Assembly: GCF_003426775.1 (NCBI RefSeq)
Contig: NZ_QJUG01000070.1
Coordinates: forward strand, 1 to 36,647
Direction: 5' to 3'
Length of the DNA stretch: 36,647 bases
Source of the DNA: Allorhizocola rhizosphaerae
GTDB taxonomy: Bacteria; Actinomycetota; Actinomycetes; Mycobacteriales; Micromonosporaceae
A model generated the notes under the pieces. It worked only from the letters and a program-made list of their open reading frames with translations, made no database searches and was not told the origin of the DNA. Within the stretch, counting starts at the first letter, position 1. The number at the start of each line of letters is the position of its first letter. Position numbers and translations under genes: made by a program. Shown piece after piece: positions 24,680 to 35,340 of this stretch.

Positions 24680-25654
24680 ATGCGTCCCATGACCATGCTG
24701 GGGTTGAACCGGGCCACCCTGTTCCGGCAGTTCCTGCTGGACGGGGTGGACCTTCACGTGTCCACTGTGGACGCCGTGCATCGCTTGGCGGGCCTCAATG
24801 CCCAGGATCGTGGCGGTGCTTCGCTTTCCGCTGCGGCGCGCGGGCTTGCGGCCGAGGTGGACGCCAACCTCCAAGCCCGCACACTGGTCCGAGCTCCGCT
24901 CCTGCGCGGCACGCAGCACATCGTCACCGCGCAGGACTACCTGGCGTGGTGGCCGGTGCTGCGGCCCGTGCTGGCTCGCACGCAACGCTTCTTCGGGCAG
25001 GTCCCCGGCGAGCTGACGTCCGCGGCGACCGACATCCTCGCCGAAGGCCCGTTGACCCGCACCGAACTCGCCCAGCGCCTGGCCCGACGCTGGCCCGACC
25101 ACGACCCCAAAGCGCTGGCCTCGTCCGTGCAGTTCCTGGTCCCGATCGTCCACCCACCCGGCCCCGGCTCGCGGACCGTGCTCGCGTTGGCGGAGGACTG
25201 GCTCGGGCAACCCGTGCAAGCGGACACAGACCCAAAACCCTTGATAGCGCGCTATCTTGCCGCGTTCGGCCCGGCGACGGTCAAGGACATGCAGGCATGG
25301 TCGGGCCTGACCCGGTTGCGTGAGCACGTGGCACAGATGCCGCTTCACGAGCTCGAAGGCGGGCTATACGACCTGCCTGACGCGCCCCTGCCCGACCCCG
25401 ACACGCCCGCGCCGACACGCCTGCTTCCGTACGTCGACAACCTGCTGACCGCGCATGCCGACCGGACGCGCATCATGGACCCAGACGTGCAAAGGCGCGT
25501 ATGCATTGGCGCGGTCGTCAAGGCCACCGTCCTGCACGACGGCCGTGTCGTCGGCACGTGGTGGGTCGAGCACGGCGACCTCCAGCTCGACCTTTTCGTC
25601 CCTGTGCCAGGCCTGGAGTTGGTGCCCCCAGTCGCCCATTACCCGCGCTATTGA
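24680..25654 (+). CDS. Winged helix DNA-binding domain protein (HTH_42/YcaQ-like)
   Basis: The 324-residue protein matches the PF06224 family of tandem winged-helix proteins, which includes the interstrand-crosslink glycosylases AlkZ/YcaQ. Visible family blocks are AVHRLAGLNAQDRGGASLSA, LVRAPLLRGTQHIVTAQDYL, GPLTRTELAQRLARRWPD, FGPATVKDMQAWSGL and LPYVDNLLTAHADRTRIMDP. Many members of this family are of unknown function, so a DNA glycosylase role is only possible. ATG 24680 has GGAG 8 nt upstream, unlike many genes here that appear leaderless. The gene ends just before the MetRS leader. Confidence 0.87.
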   Translation: MRPMTMLGLNRATLFRQFLLDGVDLHVSTVDAVHRLAGLNAQDRGGASLSAAARGLAAEVDANLQARTLVRAPLLRGTQHIVTAQDYLAWWPVLRPVLARTQRFFGQVPGELTSAATDILAEGPLTRTELAQRLARRWPDHDPKALASSVQFLVPIVHPPGPGSRTVLALAEDWLGQPVQADTDPKPLIARYLAAFGPATVKDMQAWSGLTRLREHVAQMPLHELEGGLYDLPDAPLPDPDTPAPTRLLPYVDNLLTAHADRTRIMDPDVQRRVCIGAVVKATVLHDGRVVGTWWVEHGDLQLDLFVPVPGLELVPPVAHYPRY

Positions 25655-25678
25655 AAAGACTCGCGCTGCCCAAGCTGC

Positions 25679-25684
25679 TATCTT
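25679..25684 (+). promoter_or_regulatory. -10 box TATCTT for the MetRS leader transcript
   Basis: TATCTT fits TANNNT and is followed by 6 nt and ATG 25691, the start of a short leader ORF. No clear -35 is seen; TTGAAA at 25651-25656 is too far away. The geometry is the same as at the other predicted leaderless genes in this window. Confidence 0.5.
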
Positions 25685-25690
25685 GTCCGC

Positions 25691-25741
25691 ATGCATGCGT
25701 CCTCGGTCCGCGCGATGATGCCCCGCCTTCGGGGCTGTTGA
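25691..25741 (+). CDS. Leader peptide with tandem Met codons upstream of MetRS
   Basis: A 16-codon frame reads MHASSVRAMMPRLRGC and ends at TGA 25739-25741. Codons 9 and 10 are consecutive ATGs (25715-25720), and the initiator makes three Met codons in all. It starts 6 nt after a TATCTT -10 box. The stop codon is immediately behind the first hairpin (25720-25735). Placed 139 nt before a methionyl-tRNA synthetase gene, it has the layout of a ribosome-mediated attenuator that senses charged tRNA-Met. It is too short for statistical gene detection, and the call rests on arrangement and context. I know of no described example for MetRS. Confidence 0.5.
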   Translation: MHASSVRAMMPRLRGC

Positions 25742-25783
25742 CGCTGGACGGATGACGTTCAGAGGCCCCAGATCCGGGGCCTC
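25720..25783 (+). promoter_or_regulatory. Candidate transcription attenuator of the MetRS gene
   Basis: Hairpin 1 is GCCCCG/CGGGGC (25720-25735, CCTT loop). Hairpin 2 is GAGGCCCC/GGGGCCTC (25762-25783, AGATCC loop), an 8-bp perfect stem followed by GACGTGTTTATG. The 3' arm of hairpin 1 (GGGGC, 25731-25735) can pair instead with the 5' arm of hairpin 2 (GCCCC, 25765-25769), so the two folds exclude each other. A ribosome stalled at the tandem Met codons would block hairpin 1 and leave its 3' arm free to disrupt hairpin 2. A ribosome reaching the leader stop would cover that arm and let hairpin 2 form. I found no T-box or SAM riboswitch consensus. Confidence 0.5.
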
Positions 25784-25829
25784 GACGTGTTTATGGGTCG
25801 GAGCCCCCAAACCTTCCAAGGAGGTTCCG

Positions 25830-27353
25830 ATGCCCGATCGGTTCTACGTCACCACGACCATCCCGTTCGTCAACGCTCGCCCGCACCTGGGATTCGCTCT
25901 GGAGCTCGTGCAGGCCGACGTGCTGGCCAGGCACCGGCGGCAGCGCGGCGACGAGGTCCGGTTCCTCACCGGCACGGACGACAACTCGCTGAAGAACGTG
26001 CTGGCCGCCGAGGCCGCGGGCGTGCCGACGCGGGAGCTGGTCGATCGCAATGGCGACGCGTTCGAGGCACTGCGCCGACCGCTGGACATCTCCCTCGACG
26101 ACTTCATCCGCACCAGTCGCGACCCCCGCCACCGGCCGGGCGTGGAACGCTTCTGGCGGGCCTGCGCCGCGTCCGGCGACATCTACCGCAAGCACTACCA
26201 AGGGCTGTACTGCGTGGGGTGCGAACAGTTCTTCACGCCGGGCGAGCTGCGCGCCGGCCGCTGCCCCGAGCACGGCACCGCGCCGGAGCTCGTCACGGAG
26301 CAAAACTGGTTCTTCCGGCTGTCCCGCTACCAGGACCGGCTCTACGAGCTCATCGAGAGCGGTCGGTTGCGCGTCGAACCGGCGGTCCGCCGCAACGAGG
26401 TCCTCGGCTTCATCGCGGCCGGGCTGGAGGACTTCAGCATCTCCCGCTCGCACGCCCGCGCCCGCGGCTGGGGCATCCCCGTGCCCGACGATCCCGACCA
26501 GGTCGTCTACGTCTGGTGGGACGCACTTGGCAACTACATCACCGCCCTCGGCTACGCCAACGACGGCCCCGACTACCGGCGCTGGTGGGTGGACAGCACC
26601 CGGCGGGTGCATCTGCTCGGCAAGGGAGTGCTGCGGTTCCACGCCGTGTACTGGCCGGCGATGCTGCTGTCGGCGGGCGAACCGCTGCCGACCGACATCG
26701 TCGTGCATGACTACCTCACGGTCGACGGCGGCAAAATCAGCAAGTCGGCGGGAACCGCGGTCGACCCTGTCGAGCTCGTCAGCCGGTTCGGGACCGATCC
26801 GGTGCGCTGGTGGCTGCTGCGCGAGGTGCCGCGGGTCGGCGAGGTGGACTTCACCGTCGACCGGCTCATCGCCCGCACGAACGGCGATCTCGCCGACGAT
26901 CTGGGCAACCTCATCTCCCGCGTCGTCGCCATGGTGCACCGCTATCGCGACGGCCGGCCACCGGCCGGCACCCCGCAGCCCAACGCGGAGGCGCACCGGC
27001 TGACGAACGCCTGCCTACAGGCACCGGTCCTGGTGGCGGCGGCCCTGGACGCCTACGACTTCCGTGGCGCCACGGCGGCGATCTGGAGTGTTGTGGAGGA
27101 GGCCAACCGCTACGTCGAGCAGGTCCGGCCATGGCACCTGGCCAAGGCCGAGCGTGACGGCGATATCGAGGCCACGGCGCGCCTCGACGACGCTCTGGAC
27201 TTGCTCATCCGCGCCTGCCGGACGCTGGCCGAGGAGATCCGGCCTTTCCTGCCCGGCACCGCGGACCGGATCACCGCCCAGTGCACGGCGTCGGCCAGAC
27301 GGCTGCCCCGTCCGGAACCGCTGTTCCCGAAGATCCCGGCCGGGACGGCGTGA
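25830..27353 (+). CDS. metG: Methionyl-tRNA synthetase, short form
   Basis: This 507-residue class I synthetase charges tRNA-Met with methionine. The HIGH-type motif is HLGF (19-22), with Phe in place of the second His. The KMSKS-type motif is KISKS (302-306). The single zinc knuckle has Cys128, Cys131, Cys145 and His148 (CVGC and CPEHG). VYVWWDALGNYITALGY and the helical anticodon-binding domain follow, with no C-terminal dimerisation domain. ATG 25830 has AAGGAGGT 5 nt upstream, one of the best ribosome binding sites in the window. This clade may be a second MetRS rather than the housekeeping copy; that needs the rest of the genome. Regulation by the leader attenuator is proposed. Confidence 0.92.
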   Translation: MPDRFYVTTTIPFVNARPHLGFALELVQADVLARHRRQRGDEVRFLTGTDDNSLKNVLAAEAAGVPTRELVDRNGDAFEALRRPLDISLDDFIRTSRDPRHRPGVERFWRACAASGDIYRKHYQGLYCVGCEQFFTPGELRAGRCPEHGTAPELVTEQNWFFRLSRYQDRLYELIESGRLRVEPAVRRNEVLGFIAAGLEDFSISRSHARARGWGIPVPDDPDQVVYVWWDALGNYITALGYANDGPDYRRWWVDSTRRVHLLGKGVLRFHAVYWPAMLLSAGEPLPTDIVVHDYLTVDGGKISKSAGTAVDPVELVSRFGTDPVRWWLLREVPRVGEVDFTVDRLIARTNGDLADDLGNLISRVVAMVHRYRDGRPPAGTPQPNAEAHRLTNACLQAPVLVAAALDAYDFRGATAAIWSVVEEANRYVEQVRPWHLAKAERDGDIEATARLDDALDLLIRACRTLAEEIRPFLPGTADRITAQCTASARRLPRPEPLFPKIPAGTA

Positions 27354-29354: not shown

Positions 29355-30500
29355 TCACCGCAGTCCGCACGCCGCCAACACATCGCGCCGCTCGATGGCC
29401 GCGGCCATCATGTCGCCGAACCTGTCCGGCGTGCAGGCGAACGCCGGAATGCCAAGCGCCGCAAGGGCTGCCGCGTTGTCATGGTCGTAGGCCGGCTTGC
29501 CCTCATCGGACAGCGCCAGCAGCACGATCACTTGCACCCCCGCTGCCTGCAGGGCGGCCATCCGGCGCAGCATTTCCTCCCGTACCCCACCCTCATAAAG
29601 ATCGCTGATGAGCACGAAGATGGAGTCGCGCGGTCGGGTGATCAGCCCCTCACAGTAGGCGATGGCCCGATTGATGTCGGTGCCGCCGCCCAGCTGGGTG
29701 CCGAACAGCACCTCCACCGGGTCGTGCAAATGCTCGGTCAGGTCGACAACCGCGGTGTCAAACACGACCAGCGACGTGCGCAACGTCTTCATCGACGCGA
29801 GCACCGCGCCGAACACTCCACTGTAGACAACCGAGGCCGCCATCGACCCCGACTGGTCCACGCACAGCACCACATCGCGCTGCACGGCCCGCGAGCTACG
29901 GCCATATCCCACCAGCCGCTCGGGCACGATGGTCCGATGCGCCGCCTGGTAGTGCTTCAAATTCGCTTTGATGGTGCGATTCCAGTCGATCTCGTGATGC
30001 CGGGGCCGGCTGATCCGCGCGGCCCGGTTGAGCGCCCCGGTCACGGCCGCCCGGGTTCGCTGCGCCACCTTGCGCTCCAGATCGGCGACCACTTTGGACA
30101 CTACCTGCCGGGCCGTGCTGCGCGCCTTTTCCGGCAGCACGTTGCCCAGCGACAGCAGTGTGCCCACCAGATTGATGTCGGGCTCGACCGCTTGCAGCAT
30201 CTCGGGTTCCAAGAGCAGCTGGGTCAGGTTGAGCCGATCGATCGCGTCGGCCTGCATCACCTGCACCACCGACGACGGGAAGTATTGCCGGATGTCGCCC
30301 AGCCACCGCGCCACGTTGGGGGCCGATGCGCCGAGCCCGCCCTTGCGCTGACCGCTGCCGCCCCCGCCGCCATACAGCGCCGACAGTGCGCCGTCCATCG
30401 CCTGATCGTCGCCCTGCAGTTCGAATCCGGTGCCGTCCTGCCCGTCCTCGCCACCGAGGACCAGCCGCCACCGCCGTAGTCTCTCCTCGTCATCGGACAT
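29355..30500 (-). CDS. VWA domain-containing protein of the MoxR cluster
   Basis: The 381-residue cytoplasmic protein has a helical N-terminal region (about 60-200), including VARWLGDIRQYFPSSVVQVM and EIDWNRTIKANLKHYQAAHR. A C-terminal von Willebrand A domain has the complete MIDAS start DQSGSMAAS (Asp215, Ser217, Ser219), GGGTDINRAI and LISDLYEGG. VWA proteins paired with MoxR ATPases act as metal-dependent adaptors for a client protein. Its 5' end overlaps DUF5682 by 11 bp, and it is the last gene of the cluster. Confidence 0.92.
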   Translation of the reverse strand: MSDDEERLRRWRLVLGGEDGQDGTGFELQGDDQAMDGALSALYGGGGGSGQRKGGLGASAPNVARWLGDIRQYFPSSVVQVMQADAIDRLNLTQLLLEPEMLQAVEPDINLVGTLLSLGNVLPEKARSTARQVVSKVVADLERKVAQRTRAAVTGALNRAARISRPRHHEIDWNRTIKANLKHYQAAHRTIVPERLVGYGRSSRAVQRDVVLCVDQSGSMAASVVYSGVFGAVLASMKTLRTSLVVFDTAVVDLTEHLHDPVEVLFGTQLGGGTDINRAIAYCEGLITRPRDSIFVLISDLYEGGVREEMLRRMAALQAAGVQVIVLLALSDEGKPAYDHDNAAALAALGIPAFACTPDRFGDMMAAAIERRDVLAACGLR

Positions 30501-32640
30501 CGAGCAACACCTTCAACGTGGGCAGTATGAGGGAAACCCGATCGAAATCCAGATCTTCTGTCGCTTGTGGACGGCGTGCGCCCGGTTGCCGCAGCCGCTC
30601 CCCGATCGCCCGCCGTTCCGGCCCCGCGAACTCCGAAAAAGTTCGTCGCAGCAACGGAAGCGTGGCGCTGAAGCTTTCCGCCGGAAGCGCGCTCACCCAC
30701 CGATCAATAAGACTTAAGAGCTTTTCATCGTGTACCAGCAGGAGGCCCCCACCGCTCAGGAAGCCCTCCACAAACGCGGCCGCCTGCGCCGGCGGCACGC
30801 CGATCGACAGCACGCGGGCCAGGCGCAGCTCGACCTCGTCGAACGTCAACCCGCCCTCGTCGCGCAGCAGCCGGGTGAGCCGCCCGGCCAGCAGGCCCGG
30901 CAGGTCGGGCCGGTCCACCAGCCCGCGCAGCGCCTGCAGCCACTCGTCGCGCAGCGGCAGCAGATCGGCCAGCAGCCGGATCGACTCGTGCACGCGATCC
31001 AGCACGCCCGCGAGCTCCTTGGCCGCCTCCTCGGCCACACCCGTGAGCGCGCCCGGGAGTCCGATTTGGACGCGCTGGACGAGACCGGTCAGCACGGGGG
31101 CGAGGTCGGCCAGATCGGTGCGGCGCACGTCTCCGTACCGCAAAGTTCTGGCAAGGGGTGGGATCGCGGCCATCAGGTGGACGATGTCGGCATCGAGCGC
31201 GGCTCGCTGGTCGAGCGCGCGGAGCACCGTCTCCTGCGCCTCGGGCAGCTGGGCCAGCAGACACGACTCGACCAGCTCGGTGAGCGCGGGCAGGTCGCCG
31301 CTCCCGCTGACCTCGATCACCTTCGCGGTCGCCGCCGCCTCAACGGAGGTCCCGTATGCGCTCGCGACGATCAGGTCGACCGCGAACTCCGGCTGCCACA
31401 GCACATGCCACGACTCCCAGAAGGTGCCGCGCCCGCCCTGGTGTTCCTGCGGCGTGCCCCAGCCGATGCCGAGCAGGCGCAGCCGGTGCAGCAGCTGGCT
31501 GCGCGCCAGATCGTTGGGCTTGCGCAGATCCAGGTTGACGTCTCGCCCGACGGCCTGCGGCGGAAAGCGCAGCCGCCGTTGCGCCGCCTCGACATCGCGC
31601 ACCAGCGGCACGGACGGCGTCTCGTCGGGCACGGTGCCGAGCTGCTCGCCCACGACCACCTTGCGCTGCACCAGTTTCAGGCGGGTCTCGTCGCCGTCGC
31701 ACAGCACGGCCCGGGTCGCCTCCGTCACCTCGGACAGGCCCGCGTGCGGACGCCCACGCAGCACGGCCAGCGCCTCCGCCAACCGGGTGGCCTCGATGAC
31801 GTGTGCGCTCGACACGGGCAGGTCGTCTTCGCGCAGCACCCCGGCCACGCCCACCAGCCAGCGCTCGATGACCCGGTCGTGCACGGTGAACAGGTGGTGA
31901 TACCACCCCGGGGACGCGACACCGGCGCCATATCCGGTCCACCACGCCAGGCGGCCGTGCGTCCACGGCACCCACGTCATCGAAACCTGTTGCTTGGCAA
32001 GCCCTTTGAGCAACGCCGCATCGCTCGCGGCCGACGGTAGCGGCCCGATCAGTGCCGGCGCGTGCCAGGCCCCGCACACCACGGCGATCCGCTCGAACCC
32101 CTCCTTGATGGCCTTGCGCAACACCTGGCGCATGTACGCTTCCCGCACCAGGTCGTAATGCTTGGCCGGATGCGACGCCCGCACGACCACCATCGCCTCC
32201 GCCACGGCCTCAAACGGCGGCGTGCCATCCCGCTGGTGCTCGATCACATCCTCCCACCAGCGCTCGGGGTCGTCGTATCCGGCCGCGTCGGCCAGGCTCG
32301 CGATGGGGTCGATTCCGTCCTCTTTGGACTGTCCGGTGACCCGTTGCCCTGCGGGCAGGTCGCAAAACCTCAACGGCACGCCCTCGCGCAGCGAATACCG
32401 GATGGCCTGCCATTCGGGCGAAAACACGGCGAACGGCCAGAACGACGACGACTTCTCGGTGTATGCCAGCAGCGCCACGGGCGGACGCATCTGCGGGCTC
32501 CCGGCCAGCGCCACCAGCCCGTCGGCCTCCGGCGGCCCCTCGACCAGGATGACGTCGGGCTTCAGCTCGTCCAGCGCGCGCACCAGCGCCCGCGCCGATC
32601 CCGGCCCGTGATGCCTGATCCCGAACACCCGCAGTTGCAC
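30490..32640 (-). CDS. DUF5682 family protein
   Basis: The 716-residue protein matches DUF5682. It starts MQLRVFGIRHHGPGSARALV, then DVILVEGPPEAD, and later AVVCGAWHAPAL. The order GIRHHGPG, VEGPPE, GAWHAP resembles the motif order of the TraB/TIKI/EreA-ChaN superfamily, suggesting a metal- or haem-binding hydrolase-like N-terminal domain of about 250 residues; this is my inference. The rest is mostly helical with many Leu/Ala/Arg repeats (PALTELVESCLLAQLPEAQE) and no membrane segment. It lies 10 nt after the APC permease gene and overlaps the VWA gene. Confidence 0.88.
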   Translation of the reverse strand: MQLRVFGIRHHGPGSARALVRALDELKPDVILVEGPPEADGLVALAGSPQMRPPVALLAYTEKSSSFWPFAVFSPEWQAIRYSLREGVPLRFCDLPAGQRVTGQSKEDGIDPIASLADAAGYDDPERWWEDVIEHQRDGTPPFEAVAEAMVVVRASHPAKHYDLVREAYMRQVLRKAIKEGFERIAVVCGAWHAPALIGPLPSAASDAALLKGLAKQQVSMTWVPWTHGRLAWWTGYGAGVASPGWYHHLFTVHDRVIERWLVGVAGVLREDDLPVSSAHVIEATRLAEALAVLRGRPHAGLSEVTEATRAVLCDGDETRLKLVQRKVVVGEQLGTVPDETPSVPLVRDVEAAQRRLRFPPQAVGRDVNLDLRKPNDLARSQLLHRLRLLGIGWGTPQEHQGGRGTFWESWHVLWQPEFAVDLIVASAYGTSVEAAATAKVIEVSGSGDLPALTELVESCLLAQLPEAQETVLRALDQRAALDADIVHLMAAIPPLARTLRYGDVRRTDLADLAPVLTGLVQRVQIGLPGALTGVAEEAAKELAGVLDRVHESIRLLADLLPLRDEWLQALRGLVDRPDLPGLLAGRLTRLLRDEGGLTFDEVELRLARVLSIGVPPAQAAAFVEGFLSGGGLLLVHDEKLLSLIDRWVSALPAESFSATLPLLRRTFSEFAGPERRAIGERLRQPGARRPQATEDLDFDRVSLILPTLKVLLDVR

Positions 32641-32650
32641 ACGCGCGACT

Positions 32651-34015
32651 CTAGCGTGACGCGGCCAAACGCTGGAACAGCCGGTTGACGGCCCACAGCA
32701 CGGTGCCGCCCAGCAGCAGCCACAGGGCGAGCAGATAGATCGGCAGCTCGCGCACGAACGGCAGCAGGAACACCGCGGACACGACGGCCCCGAGGATCGG
32801 CACGATCGTCGGCGCGCGGAAGTGCCGGTGCTCCACCCGCTCCCGGCGCAGCACCAGGGCCGAAATGTTCACGAGCAAGAACACGCCCGTGAGCAGGAGC
32901 ACCGTGGTATCCGACAGGGACGTCAGGTCATCGACGGTCATCAGCAGCAGGATGGACAGGGCCGTGGTGAACACGATCGAGAACCACGGCGTGCGGCGCG
33001 GCGACAGCACGGCGAACGGGCGCGGCAGCACGTCGCGCTTGGCCATGCCGTACAGCAGCCGGGAAGCCATCAGCATGTTGATCAGCATGGTGTTGGACAC
33101 CGCGATCATCGAAACGGCCGAGAAGACGCGCGAGGCGGGAAGGTCGGGCGCGCCGATGCGCACCACCTCCAGCAGCGGCCCGCTGGACGCCGTGAGCACA
33201 TCGAGCGGCACCGTCATGGCGGCGGTGAACGCGACCAGCAGGTAGATGATGCCCGCGACGGCCAGCCCGGTGATCATGGCGGGCGGGAAGTCGCGCGACG
33301 GATTGGTGGTCTCCTCGGCCAGGTTGACCGAGTCCTCAAACCCCAGAAACGCGTAGAAGGCGGTCGCCGCACCGGCCAGGAGCCCGGTGGCGACACCGAA
33401 TCCGGTGCCCGAGAAGTCGAACGCGGCCGCGGGATCGCCCTGCCCGCGGGACAGCACCCACGCCCCGATCCCGATGATGAACAGCAAACCGGTCAGTTCG
33501 ATACAGGTGACGACAATGTTCACCTTGATCGACTCGGACACACCCCAGTAGTTGATCGCCGCGACAAGGAGGATCGCGAGCGCGCCGATCAGGACCATCG
33601 GCGGGTTCTCCACGCCGGTGAGCCCGGTGAAGTAACGCCCGCCGACCCGGGTGGCGGCAAAACTCGCCGACGTCACCCCGGACGCCATGATGGCGAACGT
33701 CACCAGGAAGCTCAGGAACTTGATCTGGAACGCCCGGTCGCAGTAGAGCGCTCCGCCCGCGGCCTGCGGATATTTGGTCACCAGCTCCATGTAGGCGAAC
33801 GCGGTCAGGAACGCCAGCAGAAACGCGATCAGGAACGACGCCCAGATCGCACCCCCGGCGTTCCGGCCCACCTGGCCGGTCAGCGAGTAGATGCCGGCAC
33901 CGAGGATGTCGCCCAGAATGAAGAAGATCAGCATTGGGCGCGTGATCACCCGGCGCAGCCCGTGCTCGAACTCGCCGGGCACGCGCGTCACAGGAATCGA
34001 AACATCGCCGCCCAT
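32651..34015 (-). CDS. APC family amino acid permease
   Basis: The 454-residue membrane protein has about 12 helices. Its first helix carries the APC signature FFILGDILGAGIYSLTGQVG, followed by FAYMELVTKYPQAAGGALYC and GFEDSVNLAEETTNPSRDFP. The latter is typical of amino-acid/polyamine transporters. The substrate is not predictable. It lies between the MoxR ATPase (29-nt gap) and DUF5682 (10-nt gap) in the same direction, so it is probably in one operon with them, which is unusual for a MoxR-VWA module. AAGGGCGGCGG upstream of ATG 34015 is a possible ribosome binding site. Confidence 0.92.
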   Translation of the reverse strand: MGGDVSIPVTRVPGEFEHGLRRVITRPMLIFFILGDILGAGIYSLTGQVGRNAGGAIWASFLIAFLLAFLTAFAYMELVTKYPQAAGGALYCDRAFQIKFLSFLVTFAIMASGVTSASFAATRVGGRYFTGLTGVENPPMVLIGALAILLVAAINYWGVSESIKVNIVVTCIELTGLLFIIGIGAWVLSRGQGDPAAAFDFSGTGFGVATGLLAGAATAFYAFLGFEDSVNLAEETTNPSRDFPPAMITGLAVAGIIYLLVAFTAAMTVPLDVLTASSGPLLEVVRIGAPDLPASRVFSAVSMIAVSNTMLINMLMASRLLYGMAKRDVLPRPFAVLSPRRTPWFSIVFTTALSILLLMTVDDLTSLSDTTVLLLTGVFLLVNISALVLRRERVEHRHFRAPTIVPILGAVVSAVFLLPFVRELPIYLLALWLLLGGTVLWAVNRLFQRLAASR

Positions 34016-34044
34016 CCGCCGCCCTTACCCCGGCGGGGACGGTC

Positions 34045-35340
34045 CTATTCGGCCTCGCGGGCCGCGCGGTAGAAGTCCTGCCAGCCCTCGCGCTCGCGCA
34101 CCACCGTCTCCAGGTATTCACGCCAGATCACCGCGTCGGAAACCGGATCGCGCACCACCGCGCCGCGGATGCCCGCCGCCACATCGGCCGCGCGCACCAC
34201 CCCGTCGCCGAAGTGCGCGGCCAACGACACCCCGCTGGTCATCACCGAAATGGCCTCGGCCGTGGACAGCGTGCCGCTCGGCGTCTTGAGCTTGGTCCGC
34301 CCGTCGGCCGTCACGCCCTCCCGCAACTCGCGGAAAATCGTCACCGCACGGCGAATCTCCACAATTGAATCGGGCACCTCCGGCAGCTCCAGCGCGCGGC
34401 CCATCTCGGTCACGCGCCGCGCCACGATGTCGACCTCTTCGTCGGCCGATGCCGGTACCGGCAGAACCACGGTGTTGAAGCGGCGCCGCAGCGCGCTGGA
34501 CAGCTCGTTGACCCCACGGTCGCGGTCATTGGCGGTGGCGATGACGTTGAACCCCTTGACCGCCTGCACCTCGTCGCCGAGCTCCGGCACGGGCAGCACC
34601 TTCTCCGACAGGATCGTGATGAAGGTGTCCTGCACGTCGGACGGCACCCGGGTCAGCTCCTCCACGCGCGCGATCGTTCCCGTGCGCATCGCGCGCATGA
34701 CCGGGCTCGGCACCAGCGCACCCGCCGACGGCCCCTCCGCCAGCAGGCGGGCGTAGTTCCACCCGTAGCGGATGGCCTCCTCGGGCGTGCCGGCCGTGCC
34801 CTGCACCAGCAGCGTGGAATCCCCCGAGATGGCCGCGGCGAGATGTTCTGAAACCCAAGTCTTTGCGGTACCGGGGACGCCAAGCAAGAGCAGTGCCCGA
34901 TCGGTGGCCAGGGTCGCCACCGCGACCTCGATGAGCCGGCGCGGCCCGATGTATTTCGGTGTGATCGCGTCGCCATCGCCCAGCAGGTAGGTCACGACGG
35001 CCTGCGGCGAGAGCCGCCAGCCCGGCGGTCGGGGCAGATCATCGCGCTTGGCCAGCATCGCGAGCTCATCGGCGTAAAGCTGCTCGGCGTGCGGCCTGAG
35101 CACGGCACCGCCCTGACCCACACCGGACGCGGCCCCTTGCGCCGCAGCCCTATCCGTCGCAGCCCCTTGTGTCGCAGGCCCCTGCGTCGCGGCCCCTTGC
35201 GTCGCGGCCCCTTGCGCCGCAGCCCCTTGCGTCGCAGCCCCTTGCGCCGCAGCCCCTTGCGTCGCAGCCCCTTGCGTCGCAGGCCCCTGCGTCGCGGCCC
35301 CATCCGTGGCGGCGCCTTGCGTTTCGGCAGTCATGGTCAC
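34045..35340 (-). CDS. MoxR-type AAA+ ATPase with repetitive N-terminus
   Basis: The 431-residue AAA+ ATPase has Walker A GVPGTAKT (154-161) and a Walker-B-like IARVEELTRVP, with Glu where the Asp of the DE pair is usual (family-typical here). Sensor 1 is FNVIATANDRDRG, followed by LSSALRRRFNTVVLP. MoxR ATPases act with VWA proteins as chaperones that activate or assemble client complexes. Residues 7-71 are a low-complexity tail of 13 pentapeptides (TQGAA and variants), which looks disordered. An alternative start after this tail is possible, but the repeats keep the frame. The 5' end overlaps DUF5691 by 4 bp. Confidence 0.92.
   Translation of the reverse strand: MTMTAETQGAATDGAATQGPATQGAATQGAAAQGAATQGAAAQGAATQGAATQGPATQGAATDRAAAQGAASGVGQGGAVLRPHAEQLYADELAMLAKRDDLPRPPGWRLSPQAVVTYLLGDGDAITPKYIGPRRLIEVAVATLATDRALLLLGVPGTAKTWVSEHLAAAISGDSTLLVQGTAGTPEEAIRYGWNYARLLAEGPSAGALVPSPVMRAMRTGTIARVEELTRVPSDVQDTFITILSEKVLPVPELGDEVQAVKGFNVIATANDRDRGVNELSSALRRRFNTVVLPVPASADEEVDIVARRVTEMGRALELPEVPDSIVEIRRAVTIFRELREGVTADGRTKLKTPSGTLSTAEAISVMTSGVSLAAHFGDGVVRAADVAAGIRGAVVRDPVSDAVIWREYLETVVREREGWQDFYRAAREAE
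35128..35322. repeat. 15-bp coding minisatellite, 13 units
   Basis: The DNA repeats with a 15-bp period (unit such as GTCGCAGCCCCTTGC on the plus strand) and encodes the TQGAA pentapeptides of the MoxR N-terminus. Units differ at one to three bases. Because the period is a multiple of three, unit gain or loss changes tail length without frameshift. Confidence 0.9.

Follow-up and report, generated by a model that had tools for sequence, protein, structure and literature searches.

Leader attenuation of a second tryptophanyl-tRNA synthetase gene has reportedly been tested by experiment in Streptomyces coelicolor. The locus described here resembles the Trp synthetase-gene attenuation named in a title cited in PMC4787780, in that a leader would likewise attenuate a second synthetase gene, the amino acid being Trp there and Met here. 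Candidate trpS and leuS attenuators have also been proposed in Streptomyces (Seliverstov et al. 2005, PMC1262725) and, as excerpted, share with our locus a leader open reading frame (ORF) whose codons match the synthetase's amino acid, together with antiterminator and terminator hairpins, but are for Trp or Leu rather than Met; excerpts of the same 2005 survey report that methionine operons are not preceded by any conserved RNA structure. Excerpts of a study of Streptomyces lividans TK24 (PMC8079986) give leader peptides ahead of leuS, trpS, thrS, alaS, and metNIQ, of which those of leuS, trpS, thrS, and metNIQ are described as leaderless and some as lacking a U run, as here. The leader ahead of the Met importer genes metNIQ is there called methionine-dependent and has scattered Met residues (CMCRRMC), in contrast to the tandem Met found here, and the leader-peptide table in these excerpts has no entry ahead of a methionyl-tRNA synthetase (MetRS) gene. 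Leaderless polycysteine short ORFs of mycobacteria attenuate downstream genes, according to a title (Canestrari et al. 2020, cited in PMC13236596); they too use the codons of one amino acid, but this is cysteine and the genes are operonic.

MetRS is not mentioned in the excerpts of PMC13236596, PMC2965389, and PMC4833913, and the titles and abstract openings of the full-text matches listed, a coverage outside which most subscription journals fall, contain no MetRS leader peptide. The initial annotation considered a leader-peptide attenuator for MetRS on a leaderless mRNA to be new. The pairing of Met with MetRS does appear to be so, but synthetase leader attenuators, leaderless ones included, are already published for trpS and leuS (excerpts of PMC1262725 and PMC8079986); only this pairing is new here, extending a known mechanism to another amino-acid specificity.

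Layout of the leader region

The element lies on the forward strand of the window, by which we mean the whole 36,647-nucleotide stretch of Allorhizocola rhizosphaerae DNA that was analyzed. The gene upstream, previously annotated as a winged-helix gene, codes for a Pfam AlkZ-like protein, and the gene downstream (25830-27353) codes for a MetRS of 507 amino acids that is of the leader-bearing type, scores above the NCBIfam TIGR00398 cutoff, and has solved MetRS relatives. An extended-type -10 box of a leaderless-type promoter (TATCTT, 25679-25684, in the pattern TGnTAnnnT) is followed after 6 nt by the ATG at 25691 of a leader ORF (25691-25741) consisting of MHASSVRAMMPRLRGC and a TGA stop codon. 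Two tandem Met codons (ATGATG, 25715-25720) are the predicted sensing codons. Hairpin 1 pairs GCCCCG (segment 1, 25720-25725), which begins on the final base of the second Met codon, with CGGGGC at 25730-25735 within segment 2 (25730-25736). Hairpin 2 has eight Watson-Crick pairs between GAGGCCCC (segment 3, 25762-25769) and GGGGCCTC (segment 4, 25776-25783, the predicted terminator stem), and is followed by a T-enriched stretch without a T run, GACGTGTTTA, at 25784-25793.

Segment 3 has an alternative partner in segment 2, through GGGGCT (25731-25736) with GGCCCC (25764-25769), and the predicted pairings 1:2, 2:3, and 3:4 exclude one another. A further 7-bp helix, CTGGACG with CGTTCAG, is possible between segments 2 and 3 (25744-25762). 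Read letter for letter, every coordinate initially given for this layout is borne out, including the ATG 6 nt behind TATCTT, the tandem Met codons, and the 8-bp second hairpin; the leader stop codon (25739-25741), placed immediately behind hairpin 1 in the initial annotation, is indeed behind it, at a distance of three bases.

The MetRS start at 25830 is favored by its Shine-Dalgarno sequence (AGGAGG, 25819-25824) and by alignment from residue 1 with L007 and L008. The Shine-Dalgarno sequence is overlapped by GGTTCCG (25823-25829), which can pair with CGGAGCC (25799-25805); this pairing (25799-25829) is a possible second level of control, with no switch predicted. We note that the longest MetRS frame (533 amino acids, 25752-27353) begins with an in-frame ATG that lies between the leader and hairpin 2, and that longest-frame gene calling would extend the MetRS start across hairpin 2. 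The genome codes for a second MetRS on another contig, 28 to 32% identical in two matched stretches. Elsewhere in the window, on the minus strand (30490-35340), genes for a DUF5682 protein, an amino acid permease, and an AAA-domain ATPase lie in a row, and the permease seemed out of place between the other two.

Conservation of the leader ORF

We compared 81 upstream regions, namely the window and the best 80 of more than 500 related loci from a public genome scan, using a search blind to reading frame for TAnnnT followed after 6 to 7 nt by ATG or GTG and, separately, for ATGATG. A short Met-bearing leader ORF is present in 65 of the 81 loci and absent from 16. The promoter pattern with its start codon occurs in 64 regions, giving 63 leaders once L038, in which the frame continues for 103 codons, is removed. 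In 53 of the 81 loci it is accompanied by the tandem ATG, which is in frame in all 53 even as its distance from the start varies over 5 to 9 and 12 to 15 codons; the remaining ten leaders have at least one Met without such a tandem, and L034 and L057 have an ORF with tandem Met and no TAnnnT. The complete layout, from TAnnnT through the start, in-frame ATGATG, and stop, has no other occurrence across 1,188,382 strand-bases of these loci. Sequences that share ancestry do not count as independent events, and the conservation counts should therefore not be read as probabilities. Relatives from at least eight named families keep the short Met ORF, the leaderless-type promoter, and both arm pairs, and Met is retained while neighboring residues and leader length change. 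The alignment of DNA upstream of metG that the initial annotation had proposed thus finds the short Met-codon ORF and both arm pairs conserved, with compensatory changes in hairpin 1.

All 12 Nonomuraea leaders (L044-L046, L051-L053, L055, L056, L061, L063, L070, and L081) end in Pro-TAG, with the TAG located within or next to the hairpin 1 loop. Release after Pro is slow, and such a delay at this Pro-stop could keep the ribosome where it represses.

Distribution among genomes and MetRS phylogeny

An independent sample of 394 genomes drawn evenly from the class includes at least 37 with this MetRS type among the matches listed, the window genome included (57% identity or more, the other matches listed being at 41 to 46% and G059 a split match). 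In 37 of these at least 37 genomes, a short leader ORF containing one or more internal Met residues was found, with TAnnnT at 6 to 7 nt in 36 and tandem ATG in 31 (the G226 leader was read by eye); ORF and promoter were checked in all 37, and hairpins in the 16 matched by a covariance model of the leader. The other MetRS type, present in some 200 genomes, has no leader in the four upstream regions read. In the window's own genome the covariance model has one match. Across the 394 genomes it finds 25 places in 24 genomes: 16 ahead of this MetRS, one Trp leader, and eight weak places (E values of 4e-5 to 7e-4) that by eye are unlike such leaders. It missed 21 of the 37 MetRS leaders and is thus of limited reach. 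With regard to use of the same leader ahead of other genes, the model yielded just the Trp leader and the eight weak, unlike places.

The window genome's other MetRS is matched at an E value of 1e-40 or below in 23 of the 37 genomes, its own included. The 14 genomes without such a match are G180 and 13 of one genus, the latter having the leader type of the named Frankia loci, and a family search in five of the 14 found one MetRS above the cutoff in each.

In a tree of 82 MetRS rows, all 65 leader-bearing rows fall within one supported set of 72 (100/99). The seven rows of this set that lack a leader are from Kutzneria, Actinophytocola and kin, and Amycolatopsis nivea; the leader is also missing from nine rows outside the set, of which seven belong to other phyla. 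Class-2 leaders, those of Frankia, Crossiella, and others, cluster in a single group (94/81). A single gain of the leader followed by a few losses is the simplest reading of this tree, the root of which is the midpoint on a very long branch.

Arm pairing and covariation

Pairing was counted in an alignment of 53 class-1 leaders, with eight class-2 leaders, L026, and L071 left out. RNAalifold picked a shifted register on this alignment, with a covariation term of only -0.18, and the structure counted was therefore written from the window's own pairing. Hairpins 1:2 and 3:4 are paired in 89.1% of cells, compared with 60 to 69% when slid by one column, a control that favors the window-derived structure, and two-sided changed cells number 26 versus 12.5 ± 2.8 in shuffles. 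The clearest compensatory changes are within Nonomuraea, where L045, L046, and L051 have GGCCCC/GGGGCT, GACCCC/GGGGTC, and GAGCCC/GGGCTT, respectively, the residue after Met being Ala, Thr, and Ser with pairing kept. The alternative pairing 2:3 is possible in 92.7% of cells of the same alignment, with no two-sided change found there, the arms being too constant. Swapping segments 2 and 3 between the classes did not weaken 2:3 and revealed no specificity (native class 1, -13.9 kcal/mol; native class 2, -10.0 kcal/mol; swaps, -14.4 and -9.1 kcal/mol, with the wrong stretch taken as segment 2 in L066 and L072, two of the eight class-2 rows). The case for 2:3 is thus one of conservation and geometry, not of covariation.

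Predicted folding and ribosome position

Folding was modeled for 58 leaders (L022, L026, L062, L064, and L071, in which the second hairpin was unplaced, were dropped) with the ribosome assumed to cover 12 nt, starting at the first base of the A-site codon. With the transcript ending at segment 3, upstream pairing of this segment is predicted in 53 of the 58 when the ribosome occupies the last Met codon, compared with 3 when it occupies the stop codon and 4 without a ribosome. Met codons occupy permissive ribosome positions in 111 of 122 cases, against 53.6 ± 4.9 when shuffled within leaders (maximum of 75 in 2000 shuffles). In this model, the predicted sensing codons are so placed that a paused ribosome would free segment 2, and the stop codon is not.

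Once the leader extends through segment 4, the minimum-energy fold contains 3:4 in 51 of the 58 and 2:3 in four, even though the ribosome is still at the last Met codon. The mean stability of the 2:3 state is lower by 2.2 kcal/mol, but this state is at least as stable in 17 of the 58; the window is among these, its predicted antiterminator (2:3 plus the CTGGACG/CGTTCAG helix) being at -18.1 versus -17.4 kcal/mol. The mutually exclusive hairpins proposed at the outset accordingly need qualification, as the alternative pairing is predicted only for transcripts that still lack segment 4, and in the complete leader 3:4 is mostly the more stable. Because 3:4 prevails at equilibrium even when the ribosome is paused, the switch has to be kinetic, and induction requires that 2:3 form first and last while the polymerase passes.

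The Trp leader found by the covariance model, MFALSIQNWWWTAHPAAH, is at L098 1521-1620 and is close to the S. lividans TrpL1 peptide in excerpts of PMC8079986; the T tail of its hairpin is similarly poor. In this one case, the same folding model predicts a stronger antiterminator (-21.7 versus -15.8), which in the complete leader is kept for one of three Trp codons, the other two reverting to 3:4.

Promoter and termination

Pattern scans found no canonical sigma-70 promoter and no canonical U-run terminator. Among the 63 leaders with TAnnnT at 6 to 7 nt, a TG lies one base before the -10 box in 26 (5.6% at random places), a -35 element is not above chance (3 of 63 versus 8.8% at random), and a Shine-Dalgarno-like sequence precedes 6 of the 63 leader starts (12.8% at random). 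In excerpts of the S. lividans start-site map, TAnnnT lies at a mean of 6.3 nt and 17% of transcripts are leaderless (PMC8079986). These patterns suggest that the leader mRNA may start at its own start codon and be leaderless.

Behind hairpin 2, in 59 leaders (L026, L062, L064, and L071 being left out here and in the Shine-Dalgarno access counts below), T accounts for 3.4 of the first 10 nt versus 0.9 of the 10 that follow (Wilcoxon P = 5.5e-10, without correction for kinship), and 3 of the 59 have a run of at least four T residues. Canonical terminators are scarce in some actinobacteria (excerpts of PMC2965389), and leaders lacking U runs are described in excerpts for S. lividans (PMC8079986). 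Hairpin 3:4 is a putative transcription terminator. No Rfam family reaches its gathering score in the window, and a search for a riboswitch or T-box of any Rfam family gave no sensible match, the two senseless ones in 25600-25900 having E values of 3.4 and 4.5.

A predicted attenuator and its alternatives

We think it probable that the element is a ribosome-mediated leader-peptide attenuator that senses elongator Met-tRNA and controls the MetRS gene. The attenuation reading made initially draws support from the conserved Met ORF, the leaderless-type promoter, and the paired arms with compensatory changes, together with the reading frame, the positions that Met and stop codons occupy with respect to the segments, and the tie to this MetRS lineage; it supposes that the leader is translated, that ribosomes pause on it, and that 2:3 is held kinetically. 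Transcription would begin at the leader's own start codon, with the ribosome trailing the polymerase. When Met-tRNA is scarce, the ribosome would pause at the Met codons and cover segment 1, leaving segment 2 to pair with segment 3 once this is made, and 2:3 would hold off hairpin 3:4 during passage of the polymerase, and transcription would continue into MetRS. With ample Met-tRNA, the ribosome would instead reach the stop codon and cover segment 2, hairpin 3:4 would form, and transcription would end.

The absence of a U run behind hairpin 2 also fits translational control, in which 3:4 is no terminator and a relay of the erm type, 2:3 with 4:5 versus 3:4 with 5:6, gates the MetRS Shine-Dalgarno sequence. 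An upstream segment can indeed pair over that sequence, with co-changing arms in single cases (GGAAGC/GCTTCC in L069, GGAACC/GGTTCC in L021, and GGTCCC/GGGACC in L022), and native pairs are better than swapped ones in 71% and worse in 24% of 1341 pairs, with a mean z of -1.1 versus shuffles (class-2 leaders, L026, and L071 being left out); the MetRS start codons were chosen by their Shine-Dalgarno sequences, which makes the later count of such sequences at these starts circular. The stalled fold of L035 has 2:3 together with 4:5. Against such a relay, predicted Shine-Dalgarno access with the ribosome at the Met rather than the stop codon is higher in 3 and lower in 13 of 59 leaders, a local hairpin in the window hides the Shine-Dalgarno sequence in the stalled fold too, and the T enrichment behind 3:4 is left unexplained; we regard this form of control as unlikely.

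It is less likely still that the leader senses some other signal, such as an antibiotic-stalled ribosome or slow release at Pro-stop, with the Met codons incidental. Upstream ORFs sensing ribosome-targeting drugs are known (excerpts of PMC12121999) and the Pro-stop ends of the Nonomuraea leaders are in keeping with this idea, but it is Met that is kept while its neighbors and the leader length vary, the Met codons occupy the permissive positions, and the downstream gene is that for MetRS. As to a chance arrangement in a GC-rich spacer, each piece taken alone in a single sequence is not very rare, since dinucleotide shuffles contain a hairpin of at least 8 pairs in 23 of 1000 and ATGATG in 54 of 1000. 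Conservation, reading frame, and Met-codon placing all speak against it, and with the frame-blind layout in 53 of 81 regions ahead of MetRS and nowhere else, the comparison settles the reality of the observation; the comparative counts already refute chance for practical purposes.

Implications for MetRS regulation

With attenuation as the preferred reading, a Met leader faces a special problem from which leaders for other amino acids are free, in that the same synthetase charges the initiator tRNA needed to start the leader. No other MetRS was found in G180 and the 13 genomes of one genus with the Frankia leader type, so that the leader there would autoregulate the only MetRS. This would work only if elongator Met-tRNA is depleted before the initiator tRNA becomes limiting on a leaderless start. 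We tentatively suggest, as a possibility that we rate well below even, that the leader reads the balance between the two Met tRNAs in autoregulating a sole MetRS, and may also act at the MetRS Shine-Dalgarno hairpin.

With this element, kept across many actinobacterial families, methionine is added to the amino acids for which the synthetase seems to be under leader-peptide control. A shortage of Met-tRNA is predicted to induce this MetRS, as may MetRS-inhibiting drugs where a second MetRS exists, and the question of initiator versus elongator tRNA becomes testable with a reporter.
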